Shown here piece after piece: positions 4,831-51,880 of a stretch of 64,000 nt of DNA. Source of the stretch: Symbiodinium sp. CCMP2592 (taxonomy: Eukaryota > Sar > Dinophyceae > Suessiales > Symbiodiniaceae). The stretch's first letter is position 1. Every line of letters begins with the position of its first letter. A program made the translations under genes and the position numbers. The stretch is taken from the NCBI GenBank assembly GCA_905221615.1, contig CAJNDT010002824.1, forward strand, positions 679,501-743,500. Direction: 5' to 3'. The notes below the pieces were generated by a model. It ran no database searches. It was given only the letters and a program-made list of their open reading frames with translations, and was not told the DNA's origin.

Positions 4831-5219
4831 AGAGCGGCAGTATCATGTCTTGCAGGAGGTGCAGGTGAAGATGCTCCACGGAGGCATCCGCCTTTCTGTG
4901 CCCAAGGCCAGCCAGCGAAAAGCACAATGTGTTTCAACATACAGCTCGTTTTCCTTATTTATTCGATGGGACAAGCACAGGATCTTCATTAACGACTGAA
5001 GGGCTGGATACATCCTTGCTGTAGCACTCGCGAATCGCAACCAGCACAATTCTCAAGGTAGGTGACAGGACAAGTTGATGAACCCAGATAAGTGGCTGCC
5101 GCCAACGAACCCCTTTGCATACTGGTACTCATGGTATCTGGTTTGTCGTCTTCTTGTGTCATGAATCATGATGGGTCGGTTTTGGACGAGTCGAGGCAAG
5201 CACGAATCGCGGGCCGGCC

Positions 5220-30915: not shown

Positions 30916-31107
30916 GACTGACATTTGCACAGTGGGAATTAGTGGGAATGTGATTTCTTCCAGTGCTCAACACACTACCGTGCGGTTCTCAGGGCTCGTA
31001 GCCGTTCAGCATGGTGGATTTATTCTTTGATTGACTGGCTCAAAGCTGCAGCACACTGCTCCGGACAAAGGACCGGGGTAGGCCGTGAGCTTGAAACACA
31101 AATCCGC

Positions 31108-33465
31108 ATGGGCCTAGATCGCACAGCAGTGTTGGCCAGTGCACTGCTGGCTCTGCTGTTGGCCTGTCTTACCGCCCAAACAGACGTATTGCCTGGAGCC
31201 TCGTTGCACAGCATCGGCAACTATCTCTTCGCTTTACATGACTTGAGCATCTTCTGTCCGGCAGTGCCAGTCATGTTTTCCAGAATGGTGGTGCATCCTG
31301 GAGAGTGTTTTCGGCAACGCGCGCTGGTCAGCTTGATCGTTGGCGCGGTGGCGACATTTAACAAGCACCTCCTGCTTCAGGGACAAAGTTCCAGTTACAG
31401 CTTGCTGATTGGCAGTCAAGTGGCTTCCTACATTGTCGCACTGAAATGGAGGACGGCATTGCAGTCCACGTTGTTCACAGGTCTCAGCCTCGCAGTGACC
31501 TTCTACATCATGGAAGCCAAGTGTTGGGTGGTGTCCGTACGCGCCATATGCATCTTAGCGGTACTTTGCACAATCCACTCAAAAAATTTCCAACCCGCTC
31601 TTGGTAGGCTGTCCTCGTCCCAAAAAGTGGTTGGTGGCACGGCAGGGCTGGCAATTGCCTTCATGCTGCCGCGCCTATTCAATCTGTGCTTGCCTGTTGA
31701 CGAAATCATGGTTGTGTATGCCACAGTATCGAGGATTGCAGATGCAGCTTTTGGGAACCTGGCCATTGAGATGCTCCTTGTTACGGCAAATGTGCAGATC
31801 TCTTTGGGGTATCAAAGCCTTCAATTTCTGAGGTCCGTACAGGACAGGCAAAACGCTTTGCTCACTGTGGGAGCAGGAACATCACTCTCAGCTAGAGGGT
31901 ATGCAGCCAGGGCACAGCAATGGGTGTTTTTCGTGTGTCTGCCGTATCTCCTATCGAAAACGGTCATGACAAGCGTCCAGATGCACCACTTCGGGCGCTT
32001 TCGACATTGGGCAGAGCGTAGGCTACGACTCCATAGTTTCTTTCCCGACGAAGGCATTGCGGGCACCATGCTGAAAGCAGCTGCTCTCTCCAATTTCACT
32101 GTGGAGCAATATGCAGATGCGATCAACGGAGCTCTGGAGATGAGTTTCGGGATCATTTCCACCAAGCTGTTCTCGCTCCCCAAATTGATGCTCCTGCCTG
32201 GCGTTGTCCTAGCTAAGCCTTGGCTGATGTTATCAGTTGTGCCCGCCAGTATGCTCTTGGACACTTGCAAAGCGGGGATCACAGCATACCTGACGGCAGA
32301 GGTGGAAATGCTACACCGCCATCTGCTTGAGCTTGCGAGTAAGAGGCGTCGCCTGGAGCTGCATGACATGAAAAACGAAGATCTGATGCAAAGGGCGCGC
32401 GCCTCTCGTTTCGCTCAAAGACAATGGCGAAGCATTGGGGATCAAATTGAGGATCATGGCATGCGCCTGAAGTCGCTTCAACTGCTGCATAGCACGGCGG
32501 ACCAGATGTACCGCCAGCTTCTTTTAGGACCTGGAATCGAATGCACACTGGCCTTCCTGATGGAGACGGGTTACATATGCAGCACAGACATCTACCTGTA
32601 CACGTCTGTGTTGGAGCACACGATAGACACTGTGCTGACTCGGCAGCGCGAGCAAGCAACCCTGGCAAGCATCCAGACCAAAATCTCTGTTCTGCGCCAG
32701 TTGATCGATCAGCAAGCCGCGCTTCATGCAGCAAAACGGCCGCAGTGCAGAACGACCAAGTTTAGCCAATTTGTGCACATAACCTCACTGGAGTATACAC
32801 GAGGGCAGGCCCATGTTGAAATCCCAAGCTTGGTTTTGCCCATGGGCCGCATCGTGGCAGTGACTGGTGCAAACGGATGCGGCAAGAGCACTGCCTTGGC
32901 ATATGTGGCTTCCTGTCGAGACGGCACTTGGGGTCCAGCAGGAGCTGAGCTTACGGCCGACACGATCATGGACCTGCCGTCAAGTGACATTGTAGAGATT
33001 GCACAGCAGTTCTATTGGCCAATGTTTGCCTCTCCAATGTCCTGGCTCTTGTTTCAGGACGGCCGGGACGGCGGCTCTGAGCTAGCTCTTCGAGCGCGAG
33101 CACAGCAAATGCTCAAGGAATTCGGTTTGATCCGGCCGATTGGCTTGGAAGCCACATCGGAGTTGTCTCTGGACAACGTCAGGGAGGACTGGTACAGTGA
33201 GCTTTCGGGCGGAGAGCGTTGCAAGGTTGAGTTCATCCAGAAAGTTTTTCTCAGAGACGAGTGCCCACCAATTCTATTGATCGACGAAGCCTTTGCTCCT
33301 TTAGATCCTGCATCTAGCCACCATCTCAAGCAAAAGTTAAAGCTATTCTGCTTCAAGTCTTTGGTGCTTGTCGTTGATCACGGCACTGGCACACTGGATG
33401 ATTCATTTTTCGACGACGAGCTGCAATTTGCCAACGGAACGGCAACTCTCCGGTCACTGCACTAG
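31108..33465 (+). CDS. ABC half-transporter (membrane domain plus ATPase), intronless
   Basis: A single 785-codon frame from ATG 31108 (the frame is open upstream without an ATG). Residues 1-30 form a signal-like hydrophobic helix. Several further hydrophobic segments span residues about 55-270, and another cluster lies at about 345-395. The ATPase at the C-terminus has Walker A GANGCGKST (about 587-595), signature LSGGE (699-703), Walker B ILLIDEAFAPLD with the Asp726-Glu727 pair, and the H-loop His758. All catalytic residues are present, so active ATP-driven transport is likely. One membrane and one ATPase domain mean that it must dimerise. The subfamily (ABCB- or ABCD-like) and substrate cannot be told by eye. 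The absence of introns in an intron-rich region suggests retroposition or lateral origin. Confidence 0.9.
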   Translation: MGLDRTAVLASALLALLLACLTAQTDVLPGASLHSIGNYLFALHDLSIFCPAVPVMFSRMVVHPGECFRQRALVSLIVGAVATFNKHLLLQGQSSSYSLLIGSQVASYIVALKWRTALQSTLFTGLSLAVTFYIMEAKCWVVSVRAICILAVLCTIHSKNFQPALGRLSSSQKVVGGTAGLAIAFMLPRLFNLCLPVDEIMVVYATVSRIADAAFGNLAIEMLLVTANVQISLGYQSLQFLRSVQDRQNALLTVGAGTSLSARGYAARAQQWVFFVCLPYLLSKTVMTSVQMHHFGRFRHWAERRLRLHSFFPDEGIAGTMLKAAALSNFTVEQYADAINGALEMSFGIISTKLFSLPKLMLLPGVVLAKPWLMLSVVPASMLLDTCKAGITAYLTAEVEMLHRHLLELASKRRRLELHDMKNEDLMQRARASRFAQRQWRSIGDQIEDHGMRLKSLQLLHSTADQMYRQLLLGPGIECTLAFLMETGYICSTDIYLYTSVLEHTIDTVLTRQREQATLASIQTKISVLRQLIDQQAALHAAKRPQCRTTKFSQFVHITSLEYTRGQAHVEIPSLVLPMGRIVAVTGANGCGKSTALAYVASCRDGTWGPAGAELTADTIMDLPSSDIVEIAQQFYWPMFASPMSWLLFQDGRDGGSELALRARAQQMLKEFGLIRPIGLEATSELSLDNVREDWYSELSGGERCKVEFIQKVFLRDECPPILLIDEAFAPLDPASSHHLKQKLKLFCFKSLVLVVDHGTGTLDDSFFDDELQFANGTATLRSLH

Positions 33466-37399: not shown

Positions 37400-37698
37400 T
37401 ACTACCATTGCCTCTGCTGCTACCACTGCTCCTGCTGCTGCGACTGTTGCTCCACCTGCGCTGCTCCTGCTCGTCCCAACACCGCCGCCACCATCACGAC
37501 GACGACAAGTACCACTATTTCTGGTTTTGTTACTAGAACTACTTTTTCTACGCTTAGGCTCTCACGCATGATACTGCTTTTTGCTAATATGACAACTATT
37601 ACTACTTTACTACCACCACAACCGTACTACTACGACTGCTACGACTACTACTACGACGACGACAACGACGACGACTACGACGACGACGACGACGACTA

Positions 37699-37730
<32 letters not shown>

Positions 37731-37940
37731 GACCACGACTATTAATATTAGTACTACTAGTACGACTACTAGTGTTACTACTCCTACTACTACTACTACG
37801 ACTACTACGACTACTACGACTACTCCTACTACTACCACTACTTTGAGGACGCTTGCTTGCTCGCCTCATGGTACACCTACTACTATTACTGCTAGTGTTG
37901 GTACTAGTATTATAGTACTAGTACTACCAGTAGTACTAGT
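37400..37940 (+). repeat. ACT/ACG/CTG trinucleotide tract
   Basis: Weak CTGCTACCACTGCTCC runs lead into dense (CTACGA)n, (GACGAC)n and (TACTAC)n with TAGTACTAGTACGACTACTAG variants to about 37940. The Val-only minus-strand frame (37602-37838) is an artefact. Similar short patches recur near 49.3, 50.5, 50.7 and 52.3 kb around the retroelement cluster. Confidence 0.9.
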
Positions 37941-38082
37941 AGCAGTTAGCCTGCTGTCCTGGCATCTTACCGGCAGAGCTATCACCTCTGAGCGACATCC
38001 TCGGCCACTCGCCTTCCCAGCCCCCTCTCGCCAGCCATGTGGTGTGTTGGCCTTGGGCTTGTGCGCTGGGTCGTCGTGGTAG

Positions 38083-38140
38083 TGGTAGGTGGCACTAGTC
38101 GTAGTAGTCGTCGTCGTAGTTGTTGTTGTACTTGTTTTCG
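38083..38140 (+). repeat. GTAGTC/GTCGTC tract, complementary to the 37.6-37.9 kb tract
   Basis: GTAGTAGTCGTCGTCGTAGTTGTTGTTG is the reverse-complement type of the array 150 bp to the left, so the pair could fold into an imperfect hairpin. Confidence 0.85.
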
Positions 38141-38219
38141 TCGCACTGCCAGTGCCAATTACAATTACCGTGCTAATCCGTGCTAGCACGTGTGGCATTA
38201 GCATTAGTACCTCGTCCCG

Positions 38220-38990
38220 AGGGCTGCTGCTGTTCCAAGCTGGGTCTTTCGACTCCCGTGTCTTTGACGTCCCGTGCACGCGGGACGACGTTACAAGGTG
38301 AGCTGTTGCGCGTTCTTCTGCGGCGCCGCTTGCGGCTCCCATTGCAGCTCGCGCCGCGCAGCTGTGCAGCTGTCGGGGGCAGCTCGACTTCGGTGACCAC
38401 CGCTCCGCGTGCGCCTGCCCAGGGCTTGCCCTTCCAGCACGCCGTATCGTAAGTCTGCCGGGATCGAGGGCTCGCCCGCAACCTTCGGCCGGCATGAGTA
38501 GTGTGCATGTGGCGGCTGCCGATGCAAAGCGCAGCATCGGGGACCGACAAGTATACTGTGCAAGCTGGCATCCATACAGCGGCCGCCACCTCGCTTGCCC
38601 CCGCACGGGCCCGCAGCCCCGGCGTGGTTTCGTCGTTGAAGGGGCGTGGTTTCAGGTCGCTCGCGAGGCGGTCGGTCCGCACGGTCGGGTCGTGCCGCAA
38701 CAGTGGCTGTCGCGCACAACAGGGCCGCAGGTTCACTGCCTGGGTCGCGCGTTGGTCTGGCCTTCTCGCAGTCGCCGTGCAGCGCGCCCTGGCCGCCTCT
38801 CTCCTTGAGTTGCCTCCCGCCGGTGACCTGGGGGGCGGGCCCGAGCCAGAGCTGCACGAGCTCCTCGCTGAGGCGCGCTGACAGCCTCAGGCCGACTGCG
38901 TTGGGCCCTGCCGGCAGAGGTAGTCGTAGCACGCAGCTCACACCGGGACGTTTCGTACACTGCTGCTGTAAAAAGGTCCGGGAAAAACAA
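38220..38990 (+). pseudogene. Relic A: decayed retroelement C-terminal region
   Basis: Broken frames follow the order of a retroelement tail. LLRVLLRRRLRLPLQLAP is followed, one frame over, by a zinc-finger-like QLDFGDHRSACACP (about 38382-38423). Then TAWVARWSGLLAVAVQRALA and SLLELPPAG run to LHELLAEAR and a stop (38881). About 90 bp later comes an A-rich tail (AAAAAGG, then GAAAAACAAGG). Relics D and E share the RWS.LL......A.A.SLL motif. I recall this protein tail as common in Symbiodiniaceae gene sets. It has several frame breaks and cannot be functional. Confidence 0.6.
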
Positions 38991-39743
38991 GGAGGAGGAG
39001 GAAAGTGGCCCACAGATGTTACTGCGGCCGTCAACCCCCTTCCCCCCAAGCATCTCAGAGCAGCTCCGATGCCGTCATCGCCGCTCTCCGCGAGGGGTTC
39101 GAGAGGGCGGGTAAGTAAGCTAGCCAAGCTGCACAAAGTAGACAATACCGAAAATACTGAAACGACTCCCCTAGAGCCCGAGTGAAGGAGGAAGATGCTG
39201 TAACAATGTGTCGCACGGGAGTGACCCGAACCTAGTGCGCCGGAGCGATACACAACGACGGAAAGCGAAATGGAGAAGCGAACAGCAGTGCCGAGCTGCG
39301 AGGCGTGGCTGTACTGTAGGCCGCCACCCTACACAGCGGGGAAGAACCAAGCACGGTGGCAAGCCGCTTATCGCACGTGAGGGCCGCACCTACAACGGCG
39401 CAGATGGGGTGAATATGGTGCCGTGCTTGGAACGACACGGCAGTGGCTACCTCACGAGCCCACTGCAAGCCACACATTCATTTCTGGCCGGCCCAGACGT
39501 AGGAGGTTTAACGCAGAACAAGGCACTGAACCGAGTGTGGTAGGAAGGCACTATGGCGTGGCTACAAGCGGAAGGAAACTGGAGGTGGCGGGGGGGGGAT
39601 GGAAGCGGATGGGACAAGAAGCATGGGGACAGCAACAAAGGACAAAAAGCCGGACGGCCAGAAAACCGGACCGACAAGCAACCGAAAACGACAGGAGCAA
39701 CGAGCGACGATGCAAACAGCGTGCAAGATGCATAAACCCTCTT
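38991..39743. other. Between relic A and the LINE 3' end; probably LINE 3' untranslated
   Basis: Only short ORFs on both strands (Arg/Gly/Pro-rich). The position suggests the 3' untranslated region of the minus-strand LINE plus its junction. I could not find the element end or a target-site duplication by eye. Confidence 0.3.
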
Positions 39744-40091
39744 TTACGACTGGGGGCGAAACAGCTCGACTGCATCCCTACGGACCACTATGCGCCCCTC
39801 CGCACTTAAAGCGCGGATGGCCCTCGTCAGAACGATGGGAGGCCAGTCGTCAGCAACCGTGGGAGCCCAAGCTCGCAGTTCCTGGAGAAGAGAGTCGATG
39901 GAGATTAGATCGCGACCCTCCAACTGCCGGAGGAGCCACCGTCGCACTTTGCGAGTTGGGAGTGACGATGCCGCAGTTGCACCGGAGCCAGCCCCCGGGT
40001 TGCAGTGCAATGCAGAGTGGCATAGAGTGGCGCAGGTGCTGCAGAAGGTTTGCGCCCAGCGTAGGAGGGGGATGTCGACGTGGAGCTGCAG
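39744..40091 (-). CDS. LINE C-terminal module, possible winged helix (frame-shifted)
   Basis: The frame is open from 40091 to the stop at 39744. After a Cys/His-containing stretch (TFCSTCATLCHSALHC) it reads KVRRWLLRQLEGRDLISIDS, a helix, then IVLTRAIRALSAEGRIVVRR and a short strand. The helix-helix-strand-strand order (ALSAEGRIVVRRDAVEL) resembles a winged-helix end. It is out of frame with the RNase H ORF. A bridging frame with LCPVCWWAWASS lies between (about 40140-40100), so the original protein probably ran through here with two small frame changes. Confidence 0.45.
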   Translation of the reverse strand: MQLHVDIPLLRWAQTFCSTCATLCHSALHCNPGAGSGATAASSLPTRKVRRWLLRQLEGRDLISIDSLLQELRAWAPTVADDWPPIVLTRAIRALSAEGRIVVRRDAVELFRPQS

Positions 40092-40144
40092 CTAGACTTG
40101 AAGCCCACGCCCACCAACAGACAGGACAGAGACGGATGTTTACG

Positions 40145-42352
40145 TCACCCGCTGCAACGTAGGAAGGGTGCGCACCGGAGTTCCAGCGGCAGCTTCCCCG
40201 ATTGTGTACAACATTGTACAACCGTGTTGCATGAGGCACAGACTGGGCCAACCTGGCCACGACACCAAGGGCATGGGTTGGCCGGCGAGTCCCAGGAAGG
40301 GAGGCAAGCACCTCTACAGGTCCAGCAAGCTACTATGCAATCAAGGTGTGCAGGAGGTGAACAGCGGCAGGGCACTGCAAGGGCGGCGACTGCATCCGAC
40401 CAAGTTGGCCACGGTAGGCCCCAGTGAGCATTTCCGGCGACAAGGAAGGCCCCGCCGGAGTCCAGTAGCGCTTGCGCTAAGGCTGGTTCGCGCACACGCT
40501 GGCAGGGTGCTGCTGCTGCTGCTGCTCGCAGTCGTCGCACTGCCACTTCACAAGGATGGAGAGCCCAGCGGATTTCTCGCACGAGAGCAATGCCTGGAGG
40601 AGATGCTAGCCAGCGCTGCAAATCACGAGTAGGGGGGTGGATCTGTGCATGTGGAGCTTGATCCCCCTCTCCGGGAGGGGTTGGATCGGCGAGAGATATG
40701 CCTGCAAGATGGATGAACGCCGAAAGGCGTACCTGATAGGCACTCCGCACATATCGCAAGCCTAGCACAAGCCGCTGAGTGAATTGGATGGCCGGGAGCG
40801 CCCTACGCCTAGACACCGACAGGATGCGAAGCTCAGACTGGAGAGCCGACGATTGCCGCAGGGTGGCATGTTGCTCCAGCTCTTGATTGGCCATCGCTTC
40901 CAACTCGGGGGGGGACAGGTGGCAGATAGCAGCGCCCAAAGCTTTTGGGAAGATACCGCGGTAAACAAGATCGGACCCCGTCTCCCGAGAGCATGCGGTT
41001 GCACTGCTGCCGTTGACATCCTGGAAGAGCGCGGTTTCACGCTGCGGAATGGAGACGAACCAGCGCCAAGCCGTCAAGATTGGCCAACGTCGCGATGCTT
41101 CGGGGCCAGGGTCAGCGGGTATACCGCCTGGTGTGTGCCGCAGCGAAGCTCTCCACCGAGCCGCGGCTTGCTGGTGAGCATCCGGGCCTGCACCCGCTGC
41201 GAGCTCCGCTTCAATGTCATCCCGTAGGGAGTTGACAAGGGGGGATAGCGCTGGGCACCCCATGATAGCGTGCCTCGGAGTGCCAGGCGCAGATGCACAC
41301 AGTGGGCATGTGCGGGCAGAGGGCCATCCTGCTTGTTCCGCCCATGTGTTTGCCGTGAGTGATTCTGACTGGCTAACATGGAGCCTTTCCGTCCAGGCTC
41401 CACCGATGGCCCGGTGCAAGCGAAACGAAACAGCTGAAAGGTCTATGAGGAGGGGGTCGCCTGGAAGAGCCCATCGCAACCACGCAGGGGGGAAGGTGCA
41501 TTGAGTGTGAAGAGACGGGTCGAGTGAGGGAGTGAATACTTGGTTGGCCACTCGAGGCAACAGTCCCTGGACGGGACGCTCGCTCCAAGCGGCTTCACTT
41601 TGACCCCGTTGCACCTGGCGGACGCATTGGCGAATGGGGCCAGTAACCATGCGGCCATCCAGGTCAACCCATGCGAAGGATCCGCCTGTTGGCAACCGCA
41701 CGTCTGGTGGCGCAGTGCTGCGGGTATGCGCCGAACAGCCCGCATCCTGTGCTTCATTGCCCTGCGTTAACACAGGGAAGGGAAGTGAAGTGGCCGTCTG
41801 GTGGCTACGAATGTCTACACCTACGACACCATCTTCAGCGAATGCAATTTGAGAGAATACTCGCTGGTGGCCGTCAACCGGCAGTTGGATATTCCACTGG
41901 TGAGGAAAGCGCTGCTGATGCAGCTTCCAAGAAGGTGTGGGTGCAGAGCCCGACCAGGAGTGCCGGAGTTCTTCGAGAACGTGCTTGAGCAGCACCACCA
42001 AGGGAGAGCACTGCGAGGACAGAAGTCTGGAAACTGAACCGGCGACTGCGACCCGCATAGTGGAAAACAGAGCACTGCGGTCGAAAACTAGGAGGTGCCA
42101 CTGGTCTTTACGGCGAAAGCGTAACGCACAAACCAGGGAGAGCAGTTCGGCGGTGTGGATGGAGGTGGACTCCCATCCGAGGCGATGGGGGAGCTTGCAT
42201 GCTAATTGTGGGGACACCCAAGCTGAAGAGTCCCAGTACCCCCCCAGCCGCCCGAAGCTACGCGCTTGGCAAGCGAAAGTGGCACCGGATAGCTTTGAGT
42301 AGCCGCCATCGCCATAGAGAGCCTGGTCATCCGAATCCGCGGGTGTCGGCAA
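40145..42352 (-). CDS. LINE RNase H, zinc knuckle and cysteine-rich module
   Basis: It continues the RT frame after a single UAG; the first start-like codon is TTG, so it is not an independent gene. The RNase H acidic residues are visible: Asp15 in YGDGG, Glu69 in HTAELLSL, Asp91 in VFDRS and Asp180 in GVVGVDIRSHQ. RNase H removes the RNA template during second-strand synthesis. Residues 349-366 form a C-x2-C-x8-H-x4-C knuckle (CPLCASAPGTPRHAIMGC), usual near the end of LINE proteins. Near residues 650-715 lies a Cys-rich module with HLDCIVACWTCRGACLP and CPWCRGQVGPVCASC, probably a zinc-binding RING- or PHD-like fold. The ORF ends at TGA 40145-40147. Confidence 0.8.
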   Translation of the reverse strand: MPTPADSDDQALYGDGGYSKLSGATFACQARSFGRLGGYWDSSAWVSPQLACKLPHRLGWESTSIHTAELLSLVCALRFRRKDQWHLLVFDRSALFSTMRVAVAGSVSRLLSSQCSPLVVLLKHVLEELRHSWSGSAPTPSWKLHQQRFPHQWNIQLPVDGHQRVFSQIAFAEDGVVGVDIRSHQTATSLPFPVLTQGNEAQDAGCSAHTRSTAPPDVRLPTGGSFAWVDLDGRMVTGPIRQCVRQVQRGQSEAAWSERPVQGLLPRVANQVFTPSLDPSLHTQCTFPPAWLRWALPGDPLLIDLSAVSFRLHRAIGGAWTERLHVSQSESLTANTWAEQAGWPSARTCPLCASAPGTPRHAIMGCPALSPLVNSLRDDIEAELAAGAGPDAHQQAAARWRASLRHTPGGIPADPGPEASRRWPILTAWRWFVSIPQRETALFQDVNGSSATACSRETGSDLVYRGIFPKALGAAICHLSPPELEAMANQELEQHATLRQSSALQSELRILSVSRRRALPAIQFTQRLVLGLRYVRSAYQVRLSAFIHLAGISLADPTPPGEGDQAPHAQIHPPTRDLQRWLASPPGIALVREIRWALHPCEVAVRRLRAAAAAAPCQRVREPALAQALLDSGGAFLVAGNAHWGLPWPTWSDAVAALAVPCRCSPPAHLDCIVACWTCRGACLPSWDSPANPCPWCRGQVGPVCASCNTVVQCCTQSGKLPLELRCAPFLRCSG

Positions 42353-42394
42353 GATGGACAGCAGCAGGCGGGAGCGTGGGTCGCAGCGCCAGTT

Positions 42395-44236
42395 CTATGG
42401 GTCCTCCCATGCTTCTTCTGACCACTGCTCGGCGATGTAATCCGGAGGAGTGACGTGGAAAAGGGAACACTCCGTGGTCCAGTCTTGTTGAGACTGGGCA
42501 CAAGCAAGAGAGGCAGCTCTGGCACATTCAGCCGGAGAAATGGGAGCGTGCTGGGGCAAGGCGCGACTCCAGAGGGCAGGGTCGTGCCAAGCCGCATGCG
42601 GGCCGTGCTGGAGCAGGATATCCATCCAGGCGGAGCGTATTGAGTTAGCAAACAAGCCAAACCTACAATAACGAGCAGCAGCATCAAACATTGCGGGCAC
42701 GAAGCTGCCCACTAGTGACTGCGGCACTACAGTGTTGAGGTTGTCTAGCACACGGGCCACGAACCGGTCAGTGGCAAAACTAACGTAAAAACCATACCCT
42801 GCTTGAAACCTCATGGCATCGGTTAGGGTGCCAGCGTGTCTGGGCAGCTCCTCTGCCGAGCATACGAGGGCTTGACGAAGGGTGTCTCGCGCCACAAGAG
42901 AAGCAGGCGCCGTGCCGTTGAGCAAACTAACAAGATCCGCTGCCACTGCGGCTACGAGAAGGTCCGTTAGCAGGGGAGCCCCTAAACCACCCACTTTTCG
43001 CGATGCTGACACGCTGACGTGCTCAGCAGTGATGCGAGTGCCCAAACTGGACAGAAGCAGCCGGTGCAGAGCTGCATCCCCCTGATGGAGCGTTGTAGGA
43101 GGCGGTGTGCCTATGAGCGGAGCATAGCCAAGAATCCCGCCAATGATCATTTGGATCATGGCCAACCCTTCATCCCATGAACAACATTTGCAAGCGATGC
43201 GCTGTCGGACCGCCGCAAGCTTGTCAACGAGGTCTTGGGAAGCTAGGGAATGCCGGTCCATTGGTGTGCCTCTCTTGCCGAGTAGGACGTCTACTTGGTC
43301 GGCTTGGGAGCGAGGGAGATTGTAGCGCTGCACGCCTCCGGCCCAGATGTTCCAACTGGCTACGGACGCACCTGCTGCGTTCAAGCCTGGGTGTTGCAGA
43401 CGGGGTAAGGTATCGTCCCAGTCCGTCGCGAAAGCGGAGAACTTGGACCAAGCGAAACCAACACCTGTAACAGCGAGAGACTGCAGGATGGCTGGCAGAT
43501 CCTGAAGGCCATCCCCATAGTGCTCTATGTCATCAACATATCCAGCGGCAGGGACACGCCGGGCAGCGCTCGTGGTGTAAGCAGCACCGTCACATGCCCG
43601 GAGGCGGAGCAAGGGGTCTTGGGCAGTCCGCGAAAGTTCAGGCGAAGAGACTGCACCCTGCGGCACACCGCGGGTGACCTCGAGGGGCTGAGTAGGGCCT
43701 GAACGCGTGTCCAGCGTAACCCTTAGCTTGCCGAACAGCGAGCAATGGAGGCGGCGGACTGCATCCGGGATACCCCGTCCTTGCTGTACAGCGTCAATTT
43801 GCGGTAGATTGAGAGTGTTAAAGAACTTCTCATAGTCGGCAGGAATGCGGAGAAGGGGACGGTGGTGCCGACGAGCGTCCTCACACACTAACGAGTCCAA
43901 GTAGAGGACTTCTGTAGCAGCCGACACTCCCTTGGTGTAGGCCCGATTCAACACGGAGAAGGGGGTGTCCGTGGACCAACAAGTGCGAGACAGGGCCAAC
44001 CTTTCAACGACCGGGGCTTCGATGGCTTTCACGTGTTCCTCAATCATGGAGAGTGGGCGCCATCCGCCGGAAGGTTTAGGGAGGTGGAGCTGGTCTGCAC
44101 GCAGGAAAGTAGCAGAGACAACACCAGTCAGGCGCTGCAAATCCACAGCGTGCCAGAACCGCTTGGCCCTGGGCGGGAGTGACGAAAGCGAGAAGTGAGA
44201 GCTGCAGTCTCCGCGGGAGATGTGCGGCCCACTAGG
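42395..44236 (-). CDS. LINE reverse transcriptase (YVDD)
   Basis: The frame is open from 44236 and overlaps the endonuclease end by about 105 bp in the -1 frame. Family-like sequence (PPRAKRFWHAVDLQRLTGVV) precedes the first start-like codon, GTG 44146, so translation must arrive from the endonuclease frame. Numbered from that GTG: LPKPSGGWRPLSM (22-34), the catalytic Asp104 in DYEKFFNT, RGVPQGAVSSPE (159-170) and YVDD (203-206) are motifs 1, A, B and C. The thumb and connection follow. The frame stops at UAG 42397-42395 and the same frame stays open on the other side. It copies element RNA onto nicked target DNA. Confidence 0.88.
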   Translation of the reverse strand, partial: PSGPHISRGDCSSHFSLSSLPPRAKRFWHAVDLQRLTGVVSATFLRADQLHLPKPSGGWRPLSMIEEHVKAIEAPVVERLALSRTCWSTDTPFSVLNRAYTKGVSAATEVLYLDSLVCEDARRHHRPLLRIPADYEKFFNTLNLPQIDAVQQGRGIPDAVRRLHCSLFGKLRVTLDTRSGPTQPLEVTRGVPQGAVSSPELSRTAQDPLLRLRACDGAAYTTSAARRVPAAGYVDDIEHYGDGLQDLPAILQSLAVTGVGFAWSKFSAFATDWDDTLPRLQHPGLNAAGASVASWNIWAGGVQRYNLPRSQADQVDVLLGKRGTPMDRHSLASQDLVDKLAAVRQRIACKCCSWDEGLAMIQMIIGGILGYAPLIGTPPPTTLHQGDAALHRLLLSSLGTRITAEHVSVSASRKVGGLGAPLLTDLLVAAVAADLVSLLNGTAPASLVARDTLRQALVCSAEELPRHAGTLTDAMRFQAGYGFYVSFATDRFVARVLDNLNTVVPQSLVGSFVPAMFDAAARYCRFGLFANSIRSAWMDILLQHGPHAAWHDPALWSRALPQHAPISPAECARAASLACAQSQQDWTTECSLFHVTPPDYIAEQWSEEAWEDP

Positions 44237-46680
44237 TCATAAGCCGGGGGCTCCGCAATGCGCATCACCAGGAAACTGGAAGGAGGAGGCCAGCTGAGAT
44301 GATCTGGAGTGATGTGTGCTGCGGGGATGTCGCGCAAGGACATTACACGGAAGAGGCGGCCCGGGCAGGGCTGGGGACGAGATGCATACCAGCCGTCTGG
44401 CCTCCAGCATAGGACCCACTCCCCCACCCGCACGCAGTCCAGGCCCACAGTGAAGCCTACATCGGCGGCCTGGAAGTGCACCAAACGCCAAGGACCAGGT
44501 GAGAGGAGGGCTTGCCCCACGCGTTGAGTGTCATGACCGGTGGGCGCATCGCCTATGTTGACGAAATGCATGGCTCCGCGTGGTTGACAGCGGGAGTCAA
44601 GGAAGGGCATCAAGGAGGCATGATGCCATGCTAGAGGCGGCTCTTGCAATAGCTTCGCCCATTCCTGAGTGGCCCCGACTAGCACATCTGCAGCACTGCC
44701 GGGGCGATGGCGTGAGCCGTCACCGGCAGTCACCCACTCAGGAGAATACCGGGCCTGTGGCAAGGAGGGCGGTTTCATGCGAGAGGCCCAGGCTTTGGAA
44801 TCGCCACGCCTGAGTAGAGAGATGCGTTGTTGGCGAGAGGAGCGGATGCTCCTTCGGGTAGCCGCCGATTGACGGCTTGCGGCGTACGCGATGCAATTGT
44901 CTAGGAGTTGAATGCCTCCAGCTGGAGGGGCGGACGGTGGGAGTGAAGACCAGGACGGGGCTGATGGAGCCGGATCTGCGCGGGTTTCGCGGGTTCGTGA
45001 GGGGTGTGCTGTTGTTGGGGCGGATAGAGCGGCGATGGTAGGGGGAAAACCAAGGCGTGTGGCCCAAGCAACCCGAGCAGTGGAGAATCCGTCCCAGTCT
45101 GGAAGGGGGAACTCGGGCCGCGACGTTTCCGAGGCTTGCAGGTGGGCTTCCATGTCGGCAGCTTTTTGCCAGAGGCGGTGCCCTTCGTCAAGCGAGAAGC
45201 ACGACAAGATGAGGTCGTGGCCGAGGCGAGGGATGGCATCCCTGATGGCCTGCCGGACTCGTTTGAGTTCAAGGAGGCACGCATGCCATGCCGCAGCAGC
45301 GCGGCAGTCACGCCTGTTTACAGGGGGTGCCACGGGGGGGAGGCAAGAAAGGAGCACTGACATGACACCATCCACGGCACCGATTAAACGGTCCTGAAAA
45401 CAATCAGGCACCGTGAGAGCTGGGGCCCCTAAGAAACCGTCCAACCCTTCCGAAGCCGGTTGTTGGATCGTATGCCACTGGGACTCGAGAGCGTTCAACT
45501 CAGCTGCAAGCTGGGCAATTTGGTGTGAGTGCTCCTCGGCTCTCATTGCAACGGAGGTTGGAAGATCCCCATCCAGCCTACGGACTAAGCTGCGCCACGG
45601 TGGCGTAATAGATTGGGAGATCGCCGTCTCCGGCAGGTGCAATGCGAGGTCCACTAGCACCGGATCATGGTCAACTCTACGGTCCCACTGCCAAAGGATG
45701 GCTGCGTTGAGGAGCTGAACTTCTACTTGTGGGCAGGGCAGCCACCATATGGAATCAAGACGGCTGGCAGAGCCGGCTTGAGAGTAGAAGGTAAAAGCTC
45801 TCAGGCGGGGATGACGGGACCTGAACATGTCCTGAAGACCACATCCGACGCAGTGGGAGGCTATTGACTGGCGTACGAGATAATGTCCTCCCCAGCTGTC
45901 CAAATCAACATCGGCAAAGGAGTTGAGGTCACCTCCGACCACAAGCAGCTGTTGCAGCTCACCGGCTTTGTGCGCTTGTTGGTCTATGAAGTCTTTGAGG
46001 GCCTGTTCATCCGCAATGTGCTGCGGGCTTCCTACGCCGAATTGTGGGAGACAAGCACCGACAGGACCATAGAGCGCGAGAAACCGAACATCAATGCCAC
46101 TGTTAGTGTGCAGGACGGCCGAGACAGCCCGACCTGATGGGTCTTTGGCTACATCCGTCCAGCTACCCGAGTAACCTGAACGGACGGCGAGGATGACACC
46201 TGACCCAGCAGCTGCATAGTCTGCAGGGCCGTTGCGAGGACGTCCGTGACTGACAGCGTGGTAACCGCACGAGAGGAGGCCTTGGCAGGCCTGGGCATGT
46301 TGTGCATCTCCTTGGAGGGCAGTTTCCGACAGAATTCCGACATCAGCCCCCAGGGTGCGCAGACCTTGACCATGCCATAGGCCCCACTGGAATCGATCTC
46401 GACCCGTGCTGCCACACTGGATTGTCGCGATCCGAAGAGTTTTGGAGCCTTTCCACGTGATGTCATCCCCGAGGCATTGCCCGACGATGTCTGGCATGGG
46501 ATGGCGTTGCCCCACGTCGAGGCGCAAGCGCGCCTCAGCACCATCCACCTCGTGGCGAGGTGTGTCGGCGCCAGATGAGGAGGAGCTCCCGCCATCGTCA
46601 AGAAGATCCATGCTCGAGGAGTGGGTGCCCTGCTGCTGGGCGAGTTTGGAGCCTAAAGGCCCGCCGGACGGGCGCAGCAT
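44128..46680 (-). CDS. LINE APE-type endonuclease ORF (850 codons)
   Basis: Residues about 80-350 form an exonuclease-endonuclease-phosphatase domain. Visible motifs are ATIQCG (85-90), catalytic Glu119 in SETAL, Tyr204 in LYGPVG, GGDLNS with Asp251 and Asn253, SRLDS with Asp309, and the Asp337-His338 pair in VDHDP. All active-site positions are kept, so nicking activity is plausible. A Ser/Asp/Gly-rich leader of 80 residues precedes it. After residue 350 come helical and Pro/Ser-rich linkers leading to the RT. The frame ends at TGA 44130-44128 inside the start of the RT frame, which lies at -1. In most LINEs endonuclease and RT are one polyprotein. Confidence 0.88.
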   Translation of the reverse strand: MLRPSGGPLGSKLAQQQGTHSSSMDLLDDGGSSSSSGADTPRHEVDGAEARLRLDVGQRHPMPDIVGQCLGDDITWKGSKTLRIATIQCGSTGRDRFQWGLWHGQGLRTLGADVGILSETALQGDAQHAQACQGLLSCGYHAVSHGRPRNGPADYAAAGSGVILAVRSGYSGSWTDVAKDPSGRAVSAVLHTNSGIDVRFLALYGPVGACLPQFGVGSPQHIADEQALKDFIDQQAHKAGELQQLLVVGGDLNSFADVDLDSWGGHYLVRQSIASHCVGCGLQDMFRSRHPRLRAFTFYSQAGSASRLDSIWWLPCPQVEVQLLNAAILWQWDRRVDHDPVLVDLALHLPETAISQSITPPWRSLVRRLDGDLPTSVAMRAEEHSHQIAQLAAELNALESQWHTIQQPASEGLDGFLGAPALTVPDCFQDRLIGAVDGVMSVLLSCLPPVAPPVNRRDCRAAAAWHACLLELKRVRQAIRDAIPRLGHDLILSCFSLDEGHRLWQKAADMEAHLQASETSRPEFPLPDWDGFSTARVAWATRLGFPPTIAALSAPTTAHPSRTRETRADPAPSAPSWSSLPPSAPPAGGIQLLDNCIAYAASRQSAATRRSIRSSRQQRISLLRRGDSKAWASRMKPPSLPQARYSPEWVTAGDGSRHRPGSAADVLVGATQEWAKLLQEPPLAWHHASLMPFLDSRCQPRGAMHFVNIGDAPTGHDTQRVGQALLSPGPWRLVHFQAADVGFTVGLDCVRVGEWVLCWRPDGWYASRPQPCPGRLFRVMSLRDIPAAHITPDHLSWPPPSSFLVMRIAEPPAYDLVGRTSPAETAALTSRFRHSRPGPSGSGTLWICSA

Positions 46681-46893
46681 GCGCTACTACTGGTGCATAG
46701 AGGCATTGAAAACAGCACCGTTGCCTACGGAAGGCGGGCTACTGCGGAAGAACGCCTTTCTGCGGTAAGGACCTGCAATGCGGAGCGGGGTGAACCGAAA
46801 AAACAAATTGCGAGAGGCGGGAGAACCTATACAACTGCGGCCTCAAGTTTCTGAGAAAAGCCATGCTCGATGGCAGAGAGGGCCCGGCCGCAC
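46681..46893 (-). other. LINE inter-ORF gap
   Basis: Between the ORF1 stop (TGA) and the endonuclease start there are 213 bp with at least one further in-frame TGA. No hairpin or reinitiation signal is evident by eye. Confidence 0.6.
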
Positions 46894-47520
46894 TCAGAGC
46901 ACCATCTCACTACACTCCGGGCAACGGCCCCGAGAGCGAGGTGCTTCAAGCCAACGCTCGAGGCAGTCAGAGTGTACGACGTGGAGGCACTCCAGCCGCA
47001 CCAGCTTGTCACACGCGAGGATGTCACCCCGGCAACAAACACATGTCCAGCCCTCCTCCAATGTGCCCGCTGTGAACTCGACCAGGCGGAGTCCTTTGAA
47101 GATGGAAGGTCCAGAGCCGTCGGGTGGGTTGGGTTCCGTAGCTGGGCACGAAGAGGTTGGGTTGGTTGGGGCGACGTTCCCTGTCAGGTCGTCAATTGGG
47201 GCAGGTAGCGCTGGTGGCACGGCTTGCTGGGCGAGCGAAATTTTGAGGGTACCTACCGGAGAGGCCAGCTTGGTGCGACCTCGCTTATCCTTTCCCGCTG
47301 CTGGCTGGATCTCTTCCAAGATGCGGCCGGCAAGACCTGGTATGGCGAACGCGGCGTGCGACAGGAAGAACGCCGCGGTATCTTGTGGGAGCTTCGCCTG
47401 GTTTGTGCGAGCTGGAAGCTGGGCTCTAAACCAGCGAGTGAAGGCGAGAGCTCCGCCACATGGCTCAACAAGGCTTCCAGTTGGCTGAGGTTGGGGCGCC
47501 GGGGTAAGCCGACGATGTGT
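46894..47520 (-). CDS. LINE ORF1 C-terminal part with RING-H2 finger
   Basis: The frame is open from at least 47520 down to TGA 46896-46894. The first part reads like folded protein (WFRAQLPARTNQAKLPQDTA and AAFFLSHAAFAIPGLAGRIL). Then comes a Pro-rich linker, and the last 50 residues form a canonical RING-H2: C-x2-C-x14-C-x-H-x2-H-x2-C-x13-C-x2-C (from VCCRG to CPEC). RING-H2 fingers usually recruit E2 ubiquitin-conjugating enzymes; in retrotransposons zinc modules more often bind nucleic acid. The frame is -1 relative to the upstream Pro/Arg-rich ORF and the two overlap for about 270 bp. The same reading phase is used by the endonuclease ORF downstream. Confidence 0.7.
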   Translation of the reverse strand, partial: THRRLTPAPQPQPTGSLVEPCGGALAFTRWFRAQLPARTNQAKLPQDTAAFFLSHAAFAIPGLAGRILEEIQPAAGKDKRGRTKLASPVGTLKISLAQQAVPPALPAPIDDLTGNVAPTNPTSSCPATEPNPPDGSGPSIFKGLRLVEFTAGTLEEGWTCVCCRGDILACDKLVRLECLHVVHSDCLERWLEAPRSRGRCPECSEMVL

Positions 47521-48551
47521 AGCCCTGCCGGCAAGCGCAACTTGGGCGAGGCCGCAAACTGCACAGTGGCCGGCGAGGGAGGGCTAACCGAGGTGGTGTG
47601 AATCGCACGCTTTCCCTTGGCCTTGCCTTTGAGGGTCGTCCCGGCAGGTGCCGCATGTGACCGAAATACGGTGAGCGGTGCTGGCCGGCTTGGAGTGCCA
47701 GAATTCCGGGAAGCGTGGCCACCATTGGACGGGCGAGCCGCCCTCTTTGGCATCAGCCCTGGTTTGGAAGGTGTGGCCCTGGTGTTCGGTGTCCGGCGGA
47801 CACTGCGCGAGCGAGAGGGGCCACGGCCTCCACGCGAAAGCGAAGTGCGAGACGATGGCATACGGGACCGTGCCGGAGGTGGACCGGAGCCAGCTCGAGC
47901 ACGAGGTGATGGAGGACCACCAGCGATGTCCCGATTGATGCCGTCAAGCGTAGCTGCACCAATGGCTCCCGTAGCGAGTCTGGGAGGTGCAGGACGATAG
48001 CGGTCGGGATCAGCACGCACTGGGTGTGGATGCGGGACGGGACGAGCACGAGCAGAAGGATGCCCAGTGTGGGCGCTGGCCAGACCCGCCCGTGTTACTC
48101 CACGAACCCGAGCACGCTGAGGACGAACACGGAGAGGATTGCGGCTGTCAGCTCTACATACCGCTGGCCGTGGGCTGAGCCCCGGGTTGTCAGGCTCCAG
48201 TGGTGAAGGGGCCCGAACCGGCCAGCGTGGAGGGCGAGGAAGACCTGCTGGTGTTGAGGGGCGCAGGGCCTGCGGAGCTGACAATGGCGCTGCCGTGCCA
48301 GTAGATGGATGGCCGGCATCAGCCTCTGCAAGGCCGGCCGGAGGGACCGGGAGCAGCGCGTGGATGCTGCGCTCGGCAAGTAACAGCCCCATGCGCACCG
48401 CGCGGCGGGCATCCTCTTGCCAAGATGGGTCCATTGCGGCCACGGAGCGAAGTCGACGAAAAGTAAAAACGTGAGGCAATGTATCCAAGACTTGAGAAGG
48501 AAAGAGGATCCCGGTACGTGGGTTTGCGACTACAAGCTCCAGACAATGCAT
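47253..48551 (-). CDS. LINE ORF1 N-terminal part, Pro/Arg/Ser-rich
   Basis: A 432-codon frame. The first 80 residues contain SWQEDARRAVRMGLLLAERS, a helical stretch. Residues about 80-330 are extremely rich in Pro, Arg, Ser, Ala and Gly and presumably disordered and RNA-binding, as expected for an ORF1 nucleic-acid chaperone. No CCHC knuckle or RRM is seen. The last 60-70 residues in this frame lose protein character, and the better sequence there lies in the -1 frame that ends in the RING finger. So a frame change near 47445-47520 is likely. The upstream boundary and promoter are unknown. Confidence 0.6.
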   Translation of the reverse strand: MHCLELVVANPRTGILFPSQVLDTLPHVFTFRRLRSVAAMDPSWQEDARRAVRMGLLLAERSIHALLPVPPAGLAEADAGHPSTGTAAPLSAPQALRPSTPAGLPRPPRWPVRAPSPLEPDNPGLSPRPAVCRADSRNPLRVRPQRARVRGVTRAGLASAHTGHPSARARPVPHPHPVRADPDRYRPAPPRLATGAIGAATLDGINRDIAGGPPSPRARAGSGPPPARSRMPSSRTSLSRGGRGPSRSRSVRRTPNTRATPSKPGLMPKRAARPSNGGHASRNSGTPSRPAPLTVFRSHAAPAGTTLKGKAKGKRAIHTTSVSPPSPATVQFAASPKLRLPAGLHIVGLPRRPNLSQLEALLSHVAELSPSLAGLEPSFQLAQTRRSSHKIPRRSSCRTPRSPYQVLPAASWKRSSQQRERISEVAPSWPLR

Positions 48552-48894
48552 CAGGCACAGCGGTCAACATGTGCATGTCCGATCAAGACGAGATGACTGA
48601 CCTCACAGGACAACAGGGTGAGGAGGAGGAGGAGCGGGGGCACGAGCGAGCATGGCAATAGGGCAAGGCGAGGACGTGCGAATTGAATGAGCTAGTGAAC
48701 GAAGGAAGTGAAAGGAGGAGGATTAAGAGTAAGAATGAGGTGTGGCACTGTCGCCCTGACGGAAGGAATACGGGCGAGGGGGGGGTGCTCATCGGCGGAA
48801 GGTGCCTTAGTGCCGCCCCCGGTGTCCCGCCCACCTCGGCAAGACCCCGTAAACCTTGCACAAACCGTCAGAACCGGGGGATCTATCCGGGAAA
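48552..48894. other. Probable LINE 5' untranslated region; A11 run at its edge
   Basis: No ORF with support. A plus-strand run of eleven A at 48891-48901, preceded by CCGGG, looks like the A-rich tail of a plus-strand retrocopy and may mark the junction between the LINE 5' end and relic B. Confidence 0.4.
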
Positions 48895-49870
48895 AAAAAA
48901 AAGGTTCACGCCGACGACCTCGTAGTTTACGGAGCAACGGCGAAGCCTTGTGCTGCGACGCACTCCTCCCTGACTCATGCTGGCCGACCCGTCCCTGGTG
49001 CCGATTCTCTGCCAGGACGCGCCCCGCAAACTGCCACAGCGTCCGTAGTAGTGTATACGACGTTTCGACACGGACACTTTCGGGCAGACGTTTAAAAAAA
49101 TGTGTGGAAAACCACACTTAGTGGCAGTTGTAGCACCCGCTCAAAAGCAATGCGTTCGTGCGGCGACAGTTGGAGCTCAAGTGTGTTGAACACGGCATTC
49201 TCCTCGTGCTTCCTGTTGCCGCAGAAAAGGACAACAAAGACGGGACAAGAACGTCATTGTCGTTGTCGTCGTCGTTGTCGTAATAGTAGTTGTTGTATTG
49301 TCAGTGGTCGTAGTTGTTGTCGTCGCATGTCGTCGTTGGATGGAGTGTGTGGCAGCAACATATCTTCGCACGACGTTTCGGCCTGCCCGATGCGGGGCCC
49401 AACCCGGGCCCAGCGGCGTCGACCCATTGTATTTTAACTAGCCTAAGCAAGCCTACGGCCCGACCGTCGCCCGCGCAGTGGGAATCGGCGCGGCCATGCT
49501 GCTTGAGCGAAGTTGAACACACGGTCGCGCTAGGCCCTGTCGCTGGCGCATGGTGGCGCTAGCCGGGCCCGTTGAGACGCATGCCACGTCCAACTTGCCG
49601 CAGACAACGGAGCTGCGTCGTTCCATGGCCCCGATATCTGTAATGCGACGAACCTTCCTCCGCTCGAGCTATCGAAGTCGCACGGCGCCGCAAGCTCGCG
49701 CGGTACCCAGAACTCGCTCGGCACGGGCCGCAGCGCCTCGTGGTGCTGGCATGCGAGGTCGGCGGCCGCTGGTGCAACGAGGCCCACGACCTCCTCCACC
49801 GCCTCTTGCGAGCGCGGTCGATGCTTTGTGACATGCTGCGGGCTGCCGAGCAACGCAAGCGAGCCGCCCA
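48895..49870 (+). pseudogene. Relic B: decayed retroelement tail with intact KxxxxYPEL-EVGGRW block
   Basis: Two separated segments are visible. Near 48905-49030, in mixed frames: DDLVVYGAT, GEALCCDA and AGRPVPGADSLPGRA. At 49674-49860, in one clean frame: EVARRRKLARYPELARHGPQ, RLVVLACEVGGRWCNEAHDL and LHRLLRARS. The order D...K....YPEL...E.GGRW with beta strands between fits a restriction-like PD-(D/E)XK endonuclease. Between the segments lie a GTT/GTC microsatellite (about 49258-49325) and unrelated sequence. A T/A-rich TTTTTGTTTTTTTG run follows at 49889. The copy is broken and not functional. Confidence 0.6.
49256..49328 (+). repeat. GTT/GTC/GTA trinucleotide tract inside relic B
   Basis: TTGTCGTTGTCGTCGTCGTTG and related runs, the same family as the tracts at 37.6 and 38.1 kb. 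Confidence 0.85.
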
Positions 49871-49989
49871 CCAAGAGCTTAACTCAGTTTTTGTTTTTTT
49901 GTTCGCACCTTTTTCCGTCTGCGAAGAAGTGGTCAGGTCGGTCGGCTACTGTCGCTACGAGCGGCGCCGGGCGTGCAGTTACATACGGG

Positions 49990-50460
49990 GCACGCAGCGA
50001 CAGCAAGGAAGGTAGCGCAGGCTCGGCCAGCTCGAGGACTTCGCCGAGTGTCGGCTGCCCATCGCTACAGGTGCCACCCTACAGTGTGGATGCCAGGGCG
50101 CGCTGCTGCGCACAGCTCAAGAAGCCCCACCACCTGCGTCGCCAGCCTGCTGTGGCTCCTCGTCGTCGGCATCGAGGTTGGCGGCAGGTTCGGCACCGAA
50201 ACGGTGCAGCTCCTGCGCCTGCTCGCGCGACACCGGGCCAGTCTGTCCCCTACTCCGTCCAGACCGGCCGCTAGCACCGCCTGTTTTGCGCGCTGGTCCG
50301 GACTCCTGGGCCGTCGCAGTCCAGCGCTCAACTGACCCGTGCCCGACCTGCACGAAGTCCTCGCCGACGCCTCCCCGGACTGCGCCTCCCGTAGGAGCTC
50401 CTAGAGATGCGGACACTCTTGGCAGGTGCAAAAGGGTGAGAGGTGGAAAAAAATGCATCC
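49990..50460 (+). pseudogene. Relic C: decayed retroelement tail
   Basis: One frame at about 50140-50335 reads LLVVGIEVGGRFGTETVQLL, then RLLARHRASLSP and CFARWSGLLGRRSPAL, followed by a stop. Past the stop PDLHEVLADAS matches the end of relic A (ELHELLAEAR). A GGAAAAAAATG run at 50448 may be its A-rich tail. The upstream part is too broken to follow. It is collinear with relics A, B, D and E on the same strand. Confidence 0.55.
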
Positions 50461-50727
50461 ATGTTACTCGGTAGGTACACTACTTTCGTGACGCCATCAT
50501 CAATATTAGTACTGCTAGCACGACTAGTACTGCTGGTTTGGTCCTATATAATCAGTGTCGACCATCGTGCAACAAAGGTAAGGGTGCAGCCGTGATCAGC
50601 CGTGCATTCAGTGGGGTGGCACTGCGAGCAAGTGTCGATGCTACTGTTCCCTTGGTGTTTTCATCTGTATTACGACGACAACGACTACTACTAGTGGTAG
50701 GCTTAAGTCGTCCCATCTTGTGTAAAG

Positions 50728-51603
50728 TCGTCTCGCGCGGGCGTGCACATGGGGATAGCGCATACAGGCTCGTAAGAACCTGTAGTTGGAAGCCATCTCA
50801 CCCGGGCAAGCACATGGGGATTCCGAAGTACAGCCTGGGAGCCACTTGTGTGGCGACATTGAAGACCCAACCAAAACGCCAATCCCTACTCCAGATATGC
50901 ATGGACGTGTTTCTCAAAAGTCGTCTCGCGCAGGCGTGCACATGGGGATAGCGCATACAGGCTCGTAAGAACATGTAGTAGGAAGTCATCTCACCCGGGC
51001 AAGCACATGGGGATTCCGAAGTACAGCCTGGGAGCCACTTGTGTGGCGACATTGAAAACCCAACCAAAACGCCAATCCCTACTCCAGATATGCATGGACG
51101 TGTTTCTCAAAAGTCGTCTCGCGCGGGCGTGCACATGGGGATAGCGCATACAGGCTCGTAAGAACATGTAGTTGGAAGTCATCTCACCCGGGCAAGCACA
51201 TGGGGATTCCGAAGTACAGCCTGGGAGCCACTTGTGTGGCGACATTGAAAACCCAACCGAAACGCCAATCCCTACTCCAGATATGCATGGACGTGTTTCT
51301 CAAAAGTCGTCTCGCGCGGGCGTGCACATGGGGATAGCGCATACAGGCTCGTAAGAACATGTAGTTGGAAGTCATCTCACCCGGGCAAGCACATGGGGAT
51401 TCCGAAGTACAGCCTGGGAGCCACTTGTGTGGCGACATTGAAAACCCAACCGAAACGCCAATCCCTACTCCAGATATGCATGGACGTGTTTCTCAAAAGT
51501 CGTCTCGCGCGGGCGTGCACATGGGGATAGCGCATACAGGCTCGTAAGAACATGTAGTTGGGAGTCGTCTCACCCCGGCAAGCACATGGGGGTTCCGAAG
51601 TAA
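50728..51603 (+). repeat. 193-bp tandem satellite, about 4.5 units
   Basis: Units start with GTCGTCTCGCGCGGGCGTGC at 50728, 50920, 51113, 51306 and 51499 (spacing 192, 193, 193, 193). Copies differ at only a few positions; the first and last are the most diverged. Within each unit GTGCACATGGGGAT and GCACATGGGGATTC form a shorter internal repeat about 75 bp apart. Both strands carry 60-90 codon frames per unit, which are repeat artefacts. The high identity indicates recent amplification or gene conversion. Confidence 0.95.
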
Positions 51604-51880
51604 AGCTGTCAGGGAAGTAAATATCACGGGTTTACAGTTTAAAGCTGTTTGGGTAGTAAATCTATGCGTTTTGTAGGTGTAAAGCCTTTGGGGCAGTAAA
51701 CCTTCGCGTCTTACCTAGGGAAATACCGGGCTGCATAGGTTGTCTAGCGAAATACAGGGTTGAATAGGTTTTTAGAGAAATACAGAATTGAATAGGTTTT
51801 CTAGGGAAATACAGGGTTGAATAGGTTCTAGAGAGAAAATGCAGAGTTGAATAGATTTTTTACGAGGAAAATACGGCAAA
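51604..51880 (+). repeat. Two short-period arrays after the satellite
   Basis: At 51604-51710 three diverged units share AAAGC(T/C)(G/T)T...GGGCAGTAAA. At 51718-51860 five units of about 31 bp share GAAATACAGGGTTGAATAGG and a TTTTCTAG tail. Both are AT-richer than their surroundings. Confidence 0.8.

Follow-up and report, generated by a model that had tools for sequence, protein, structure and literature searches.

A degraded LINE of Symbiodinium with a RING-H2 finger at the end of ORF1

Does a RING-H2 finger encoded beside a reverse transcriptase in Symbiodinium belong to a LINE, and, if it does, could it connect the element with the ubiquitin system of its host? The question is raised by a locus in a window of 64,000 nucleotides, the whole stretch of DNA that was analysed, from Symbiodinium sp. 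CCMP2592 (contig CAJNDT010002824.1, positions 679,501 to 743,500). The minus strand of this window, from about 48.4 to 39.7 kb, contains a degraded LINE with two ORFs, the first of which ends in a RING-H2 finger. An earlier note, made from the sequence alone, had called the element a LINE, and this identity was borne out by a match to RVT_1, the presence of two ORFs, and the lack of long terminal repeats in the window. The named closest copies come from Symbiodinium. With respect to terminal repeats, a blastn comparison of 38001-50500 with the window returned the stretch itself and three simple-repeat matches. The copy in the window is a dead one, since ORF1 and ORF2 have each undergone a frame change (near 47380 and near 44160, respectively) and ORF2 is interrupted by an in-frame TAG at 42397-42395. 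One or two further frame changes are found after about 40300.

ORF1 occupies 46894-48434 of the minus strand, from the ATG at 48434 (MDPSWQ) to the TGA at 46896-46894, and comprises about 512 codons with the one frame change near 47380. The earlier note had placed its start at 48551; this was corrected to 48434, which is most likely the true start, as the database relative P0026 begins in the same way. In order, ORF1 consists of an N-terminal helix, a basic Pro/Arg-rich stretch, an RRM-like domain, a variable linker, and the RING-H2 finger. The N-terminal segment (48348-48434, minus strand) is a conserved run of 29 residues, 27 of which are identical between P0026 and the further relative P0030, and its letters are the same in P0028 and P0030 as judged by eye. 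A helix is predicted at residues 4-27 in the structure model, with a pLDDT of about 65. The Pro/Arg-rich stretch that follows (47541-48347, minus strand) has a net charge of +36 over 269 residues and, given its low pLDDT, is probably disordered. The RRM-like domain (47230-47537, minus strand), inside which the frame change falls, was assigned by fold match, the best-scoring match being the RRM of human LINE-1 ORF1p at 16% identity from a low-confidence model, so that the resemblance of the ORF1 middle domain to this RRM is held with low confidence. Mean pLDDT values of the structure models are 36 and 43.

The RING-H2 finger itself lies at 46912-47043 of the minus strand, measured from first to last ligand. 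Its ligands follow the pattern C-x2-C-x14-C-x-H-x2-H-x2-C-x13-C-x2-C, with all eight present at the end of ORF1. The canonical RING-H2 claimed by the earlier note thus stands, and the search of the ORF1 end against RING profiles that the note had proposed agrees with it. Against Pfam zf-RING_2, the window RING scores 26.6 bits (E 7.2e-6), which is 0.7 bit under the cut-off of 27.3, and against zf-ANAPC11 it scores 25.3 bits, above the cut-off of 25. Among the database relatives, P0001 passes the zf-RING_2 cut-off (31.4 vs 27.3), P0026, P0027, and P0028 score 26.0, 23.2, and 23.1 with zf-RING_2 and lie under every Pfam RING cut-off, P0030 is under all of these cut-offs, and P0029 gives no Pfam row. 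In P0001, P0026, P0027, P0028, and P0030, the Pfam rows with E up to 1 belong without exception to RING or RING-like families, and the PDB sequences nearest to the RING are mostly E3 ligases (ZNRF1, RLIM, RNF13, RNF38, APC11).

The scores of the window copy, P0027, and P0028 below the curated zf-RING_2 cut-off, together with the fit of the RING-deleted P0030 to a CCHC-like pattern, might be read as signs of a chance arrangement of Cys and His residues, or of another zinc finger (PHD, zinc knuckle) misread as a RING, but such a reading is very improbable in view of P0001, which passes the cut-off, the uniformly RING or RING-like Pfam rows, and the pattern counts. Across all six frames of the whole window there is a single match to the general RING-H2 pattern, compared with none in 190 Markov sequences (40 first-order copies of the window and 150 copies of 38000-50300), and a chance pattern was rejected. 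A PHD or CCHC identity of the ORF1 C-terminal module was likewise rejected. No CCHC-like pattern follows the RRM in the window ORF1, P0026, P0027, P0028, or P0001, that in P0030 being an accident of its RING deletion, and zf-CCHC rows are absent from the Pfam scans of the relatives. For PHD, there is no row in the Pfam scans of window and relatives, and none of the seven proteins contains a PHD-like pattern. The Pfam scans of the ORF1 relatives also contain no row at E up to 1 for Transposase_22 (PF02994) or DNA_methylase.

Whether the finger is part of the element can be judged from its relatives. A first protein search returned a single relative, P0001, and the RRM-to-RING part of the read-through ORF1 returned six, P0001 included. 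The closest, P0026, is a protein of 510 aa in one open frame from Symbiodinium sp. CCMP2592, and 503 of its 510 aligned residues are identical to the window ORF1 (98.6%). All eight RING ligands are found in one frame with the RRM-like part in four of the six: P0026, P0027, P0028 (a cluster of 10 member sequences), and P0001. Similarity upstream of ORF1 reaches 48834 in P0027. Of the remaining two, P0030 has lost part of the RING to an internal deletion and has frame-broken parts upstream, while P0029, from S. microadriaticum, comes from a spliced gene model in which the RING breaks off halfway and is followed by two pieces resembling the start of ORF2. The first piece has 20 residues at window 46656-46597 with 65% identity, including MDLLD, and the second has 16 residues at 46508-46461 with 75% identity, in a different frame from ORF2. 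Both together match the ORF2 start with an E of 0.025, a weak score, and their order and spacing would place a RING ORF directly before such an ORF2 in a second species. Neither viral contigs, scanned with the RT ORF and with alignments of ORF1 and of the RT, nor genome contigs, scanned with the RT alignment, yielded a relative.

The earlier note had been prepared to abandon its reading if other copies lacked the RING or if the RING proved to belong to a host gene next to the element. The first concern is largely answered by the four relatives with all eight ligands, alongside the damaged P0030 and the P0029 finger cut by its gene model. As to the second, the names and gene models of some relatives are mixed up, and could suggest a host gene or exon adjoining the element, or a one-off capture in the window copy: P0026 carries the source label ATP6V0A1, although it is a LINE ORF1 in which Pfam shows only RING families, and in P0024 an SPX domain is fused to a piece of an RT. 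This explanation has hardly any probability left and was rejected, given the open fusions of RRM-like part and RING in P0026, P0027, P0028, and P0001, the traces in P0029 and P0030, and the tie, weak by score, between the RING and an ORF2 start in P0029. Judged on these sequences, the RING belongs to ORF1 of the element and is not a neighbouring host gene, because the same ORF1 is intact in P0026 and four of the six relatives have all eight ligands.

Conservation within ORF1 was compared domain by domain in four of the six database proteins, P0029 and P0030 being left out because the former is a spliced gene model and the latter is frame-broken. Five of the pairs that can be drawn from P0026, P0027, P0028, and P0001 are informative. 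In these, 82-93% of residues agree in the RRM-like part and 87-89% in the RING, but the linker reaches only 58-64% identity, and the portion of the N-terminal Pro/Arg-rich stretch that all four copies share only 53-63%. The sixth pair, P0027-P0028, is 97-100% identical in all these parts and is uninformative. The difference between RING and linker gives Fisher p values of 0.0004 to 0.007 on protein identity, for pairs that share history and are not independent tests. Since the RRM-like and RING parts are conserved and the linker has diverged, the comparison points to selection on the ORF1 protein, RING included.

ORF2 begins at Met 46680 or 46611 and is spread over three stop-to-stop frames of the minus strand reaching 40145 (46683-44128, 44236-42395, and 42394-40145), joined at the frame change near 44160 and at the TAG at 42397-42395. 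Its first part (44128-46683) carries ExoIII/APE-like endonuclease motifs, which stand at the ORF2 front in the expected order, and a long spacer before the RT. Compared with the PDB, the ORF2 front gave three rows at E up to 10, all exodeoxyribonucleases (best 2jc5, a weak E of 0.055), and exoDNase_III (TIGR00195) matched the relative P0003 weakly (E 0.043). The second part (42395-44236) is the reverse transcriptase (RVT_1 E 6.4e-12) and ends at the TAG. Among the best 7997 candidates by shared words, the RT has at least 24 relatives with 41-66% identity, three of them from EukProt. Searched against the PDB, a profile built from the window RT together with nine relatives hit R2 retrotransposon proteins (E 6e-6), and only R2-type proteins appeared at E up to 1. 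NCBIfam returned only weak rows.

The spacer between endonuclease and RT (44160-45606, minus strand) is itself several hundred residues long and shows 27-44% identity over long stretches in relatives. It has no Pfam match in the window copy and is possibly an undescribed domain.

The third part of ORF2 begins with an RNase H-like region (41740-42394, minus strand), recognized by motifs and alignment only, with D, E, D, and D motifs at about 42316, 42157, 42085, and 41761. Zinc knuckles are common at the end of ORF2 in LINEs, and one with the pattern C-x2-C-x8-H-x4-C is found here at 41255-41308 of the minus strand. The same pattern is carried by P0013, the only relative that reaches this far, so that the knuckle that the earlier note had seen after RNase H is upheld by motif and alignment. 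No Pfam match above cut-off was obtained in ORF2 for endonuclease, RNase H, or zinc-knuckle families.

The earlier note had gone further, with several zinc modules after RNase H and a polyprotein ending in a Cys-rich and a helix-strand module. The knuckle, seen in P0013, is the part that held. The Cys-rich stretch (40229-40369, minus strand; CRC, CWTC, CPWC, CASC) and the helix-strand-like tail have no relative among the proteins found and no Pfam match above cut-off, the only Pfam row of the tail being zf-CCHC_4 at E 1.5, far under its cut-off. As for the polyprotein, the Cys-rich stretch does keep to the reading frame of the ORF2 part before it, whereas the tail, the last coding-like stretch (39744-40000, minus strand), is in another frame. 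By codon bias, phase 1 is the coding phase down to about 40300. Between about 40300 and about 40060 the signal is weak and undecided, after which phase 2 clearly prevails in the blocks 40000-39880 (+0.21 to +0.29), up to the TAA stop at 39744.

Direct repeats flanking the element are no better than chance or lie within simple repeats. One of 11 bases occurs at 48886 and 38977, and about 1.4 such repeats are estimated to be expected by chance over the stretches compared. GC-rich sequence lies on either side of the LINE (49400-50700 and 37880-39740), and the two flanks show a weak similarity to each other, with a local score of 147 where 20 simple shuffles reached 116 at best. Simple repeats of the TAC/GTT type occur at 37625-37842 and 49252-49336. 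The element may have inserted into a pre-existing repeat.

Other features were observed elsewhere in the window. About 2 kb upstream of the LINE, a tandem array at 50724-51606 contains 4.6 copies of a 193-bp unit with 98% matches. On the plus strand, an 840-aa open frame at 30943-33465 ends in an ABC transporter ATPase domain (PF00005 E 2.3e-9), and a 303-aa open frame at 5172-6083 contains a SET domain (PF00856 E 1.5e-6).

What the RING may do is a separate matter. Sequence comparison shows how ORF1 is built, that several copies share this build, and that the RING is conserved at the protein level. Chances are about even that these copies represent a LINE family of Symbiodinium whose ORF1p joins an RNA-binding front to a C-terminal RING-H2 that links to a host E2 and ubiquitin. 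In such a family, ORF1p would coat the element RNA through its basic tail and LINE-1-like RRM, and ORF2p would nick the target and reverse-transcribe, by analogy with other LINEs. The RING, which would sit where other LINEs have CCHC knuckles, a CTD, or a PHD finger in ORF1, would project from the RNP and bind a host E2, whereupon ubiquitin could be attached to ORF1p or to host proteins present at the RNP. Ubiquitination, in turn, may control RNP turnover or remove a restricting factor.

Active RING E3 ligases typically have a hydrophobic residue between ligands 1 and 2, a Trp, a Pro, and a basic linchpin. The element resembles the RING-H2 E3s ZNRF1, RLIM, RNF13, synoviolin, and APC11 in ligand order, in the Trp after the sixth ligand, and in CPxC, and it shares with APC11 a long loop between ligands 6 and 7. 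The Trp and the CPxC Pro are kept in all five complete copies, that in the window included, and with the E3-like spacing they favour E2 binding. The element differs from these E3s in being borne by a retrotransposon and at two positions. Two residues after the first ligand it has Cys, in contrast to Ile in ZNRF1, RNF13, and synoviolin, Val in RLIM, and Ser in APC11, and after the last ligand it has Asn in the four complete database copies and Ser in the window, in contrast to Arg or Lys in RLIM, RNF13, synoviolin, and APC11. Both substitutions would presumably weaken E2 binding or ubiquitin transfer, and they speak for a transfer that is weak or absent. APC11, an E3, likewise has no Ile or Val at the first of these positions. 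With these two atypical positions, E3 activity of the element RING is no more than plausible.

A purely structural role is the most serious alternative, with a probability somewhat short of even. The RING-H2 would then be a non-catalytic cross-brace zinc module for ORF1p oligomerisation, or for binding nucleic acid or a partner, and would stand in for CCHC, CTD, or PHD modules. Such a role agrees with the atypical E2-contact and post-C8 residues and with a RING conservation similar to that of the RRM, as would suit a shared structural role. It also has an analogy in ORF1 types I, II, and III, as far as the passages of PMC4120745 describe them, and a precedent in the C-terminal RING of Slx1, read in a passage of PMC1564403 as a protein or DNA contact module. 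However, the nearest RING-H2 sequences in the PDB are mostly E3s, and no complete copy has lost the Trp, the Pro, or the spacing. On balance, an E2-linked function is put slightly ahead of the structural one. The boldest version of the E2-linked reading, that the LINE encodes its own ubiquitin ligase, is unlikely, if conceivable. Here an RNA-bound ORF1p-E3 would tag host restriction factors, target-site chromatin proteins, or ORF1p with ubiquitin, as a counterpart of viral RING E3s, and so help the family to stay mobile. With P0026 there is a defined protein for asking if retrotransposons can encode an E3 of their own. Human LINE-1, whose ORF1p supplies the best fold match for the RRM-like part, is not known to carry a RING.

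A RING in LINE ORF1 was not found reported among the matches listed from the open-licence PMC literature, though an earlier description, for example in Repbase reports, is possible. Two hits for "ring finger" beside non-LTR were set aside: in the passage of PMC5678591 the term means part of the RT hand and not a RING domain, and in that of PMC1564403 it refers to Slx1. A review of dinoflagellate genomes (PMC11453091) yielded no passage on a RING domain among those retrieved.

Five ORF1 types are distinguished in the available part of PMC4120745, after Khazina and Weichenrieder: RRM with CCHC; coiled coil, RRM, and CTD; PHD with or without RRM; esterase; and unclassified. The text of PMC4120745 does not mention RING, and the combination of RRM and RING-H2 matches none of its types as described in that part. 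Like the element, LINEs with type I, II, or III ORF1 have an RRM-like domain in ORF1 ahead of an ORF2 with endonuclease and RT, and types I and III also pair the RRM with a zinc module. Their zinc module consists of CCHC knuckles or PHD, whereas that of the element is RING-H2, and the element gives no Transposase_22 match. Among them, CR1/L2 elements with PHD in ORF1 share with the element a cross-brace zinc finger in ORF1 and, in some, an RRM, but their finger is C4HC3, that of the element is C3H2C3, and they come from other hosts (PMC4120745, in part).

Judging from the passages at hand, accessory domains have been recruited to LINE ORF1 several times, including CCHC, PHD, and esterase (PMC4120745), a methyltransferase (PMC5890265), and helicases in insect LINEs (PMC5563155). 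To these, a RING-H2 conserved to much the same degree as the RNA-binding domain would add a direct route from the LINE RNP to host ubiquitin. The LINEs of Symbiodinium are described in a passage of PMC8045281 as likely remnants of an ancient expansion. The small differences between the window ORF1 and P0026 imply separate insertions, and if they are separate, two ORF1 copies this alike in protein would suggest that the RING-carrying family moved later than those old remnants.

The closest precedent, on the part of PMC5890265 seen, is SymbioLINE-Dnmt. PMC5890265 mentions neither RING nor zinc finger nor ubiquitin. Like the element described here, SymbioLINE-Dnmt is a Symbiodinium LINE with an extra domain in ORF1 and RT in ORF2, and its extra domain is under purifying selection. 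That domain is a DNA methyltransferase, for which the ORF1 of the element gives no match, its own addition being a RING-H2 finger.
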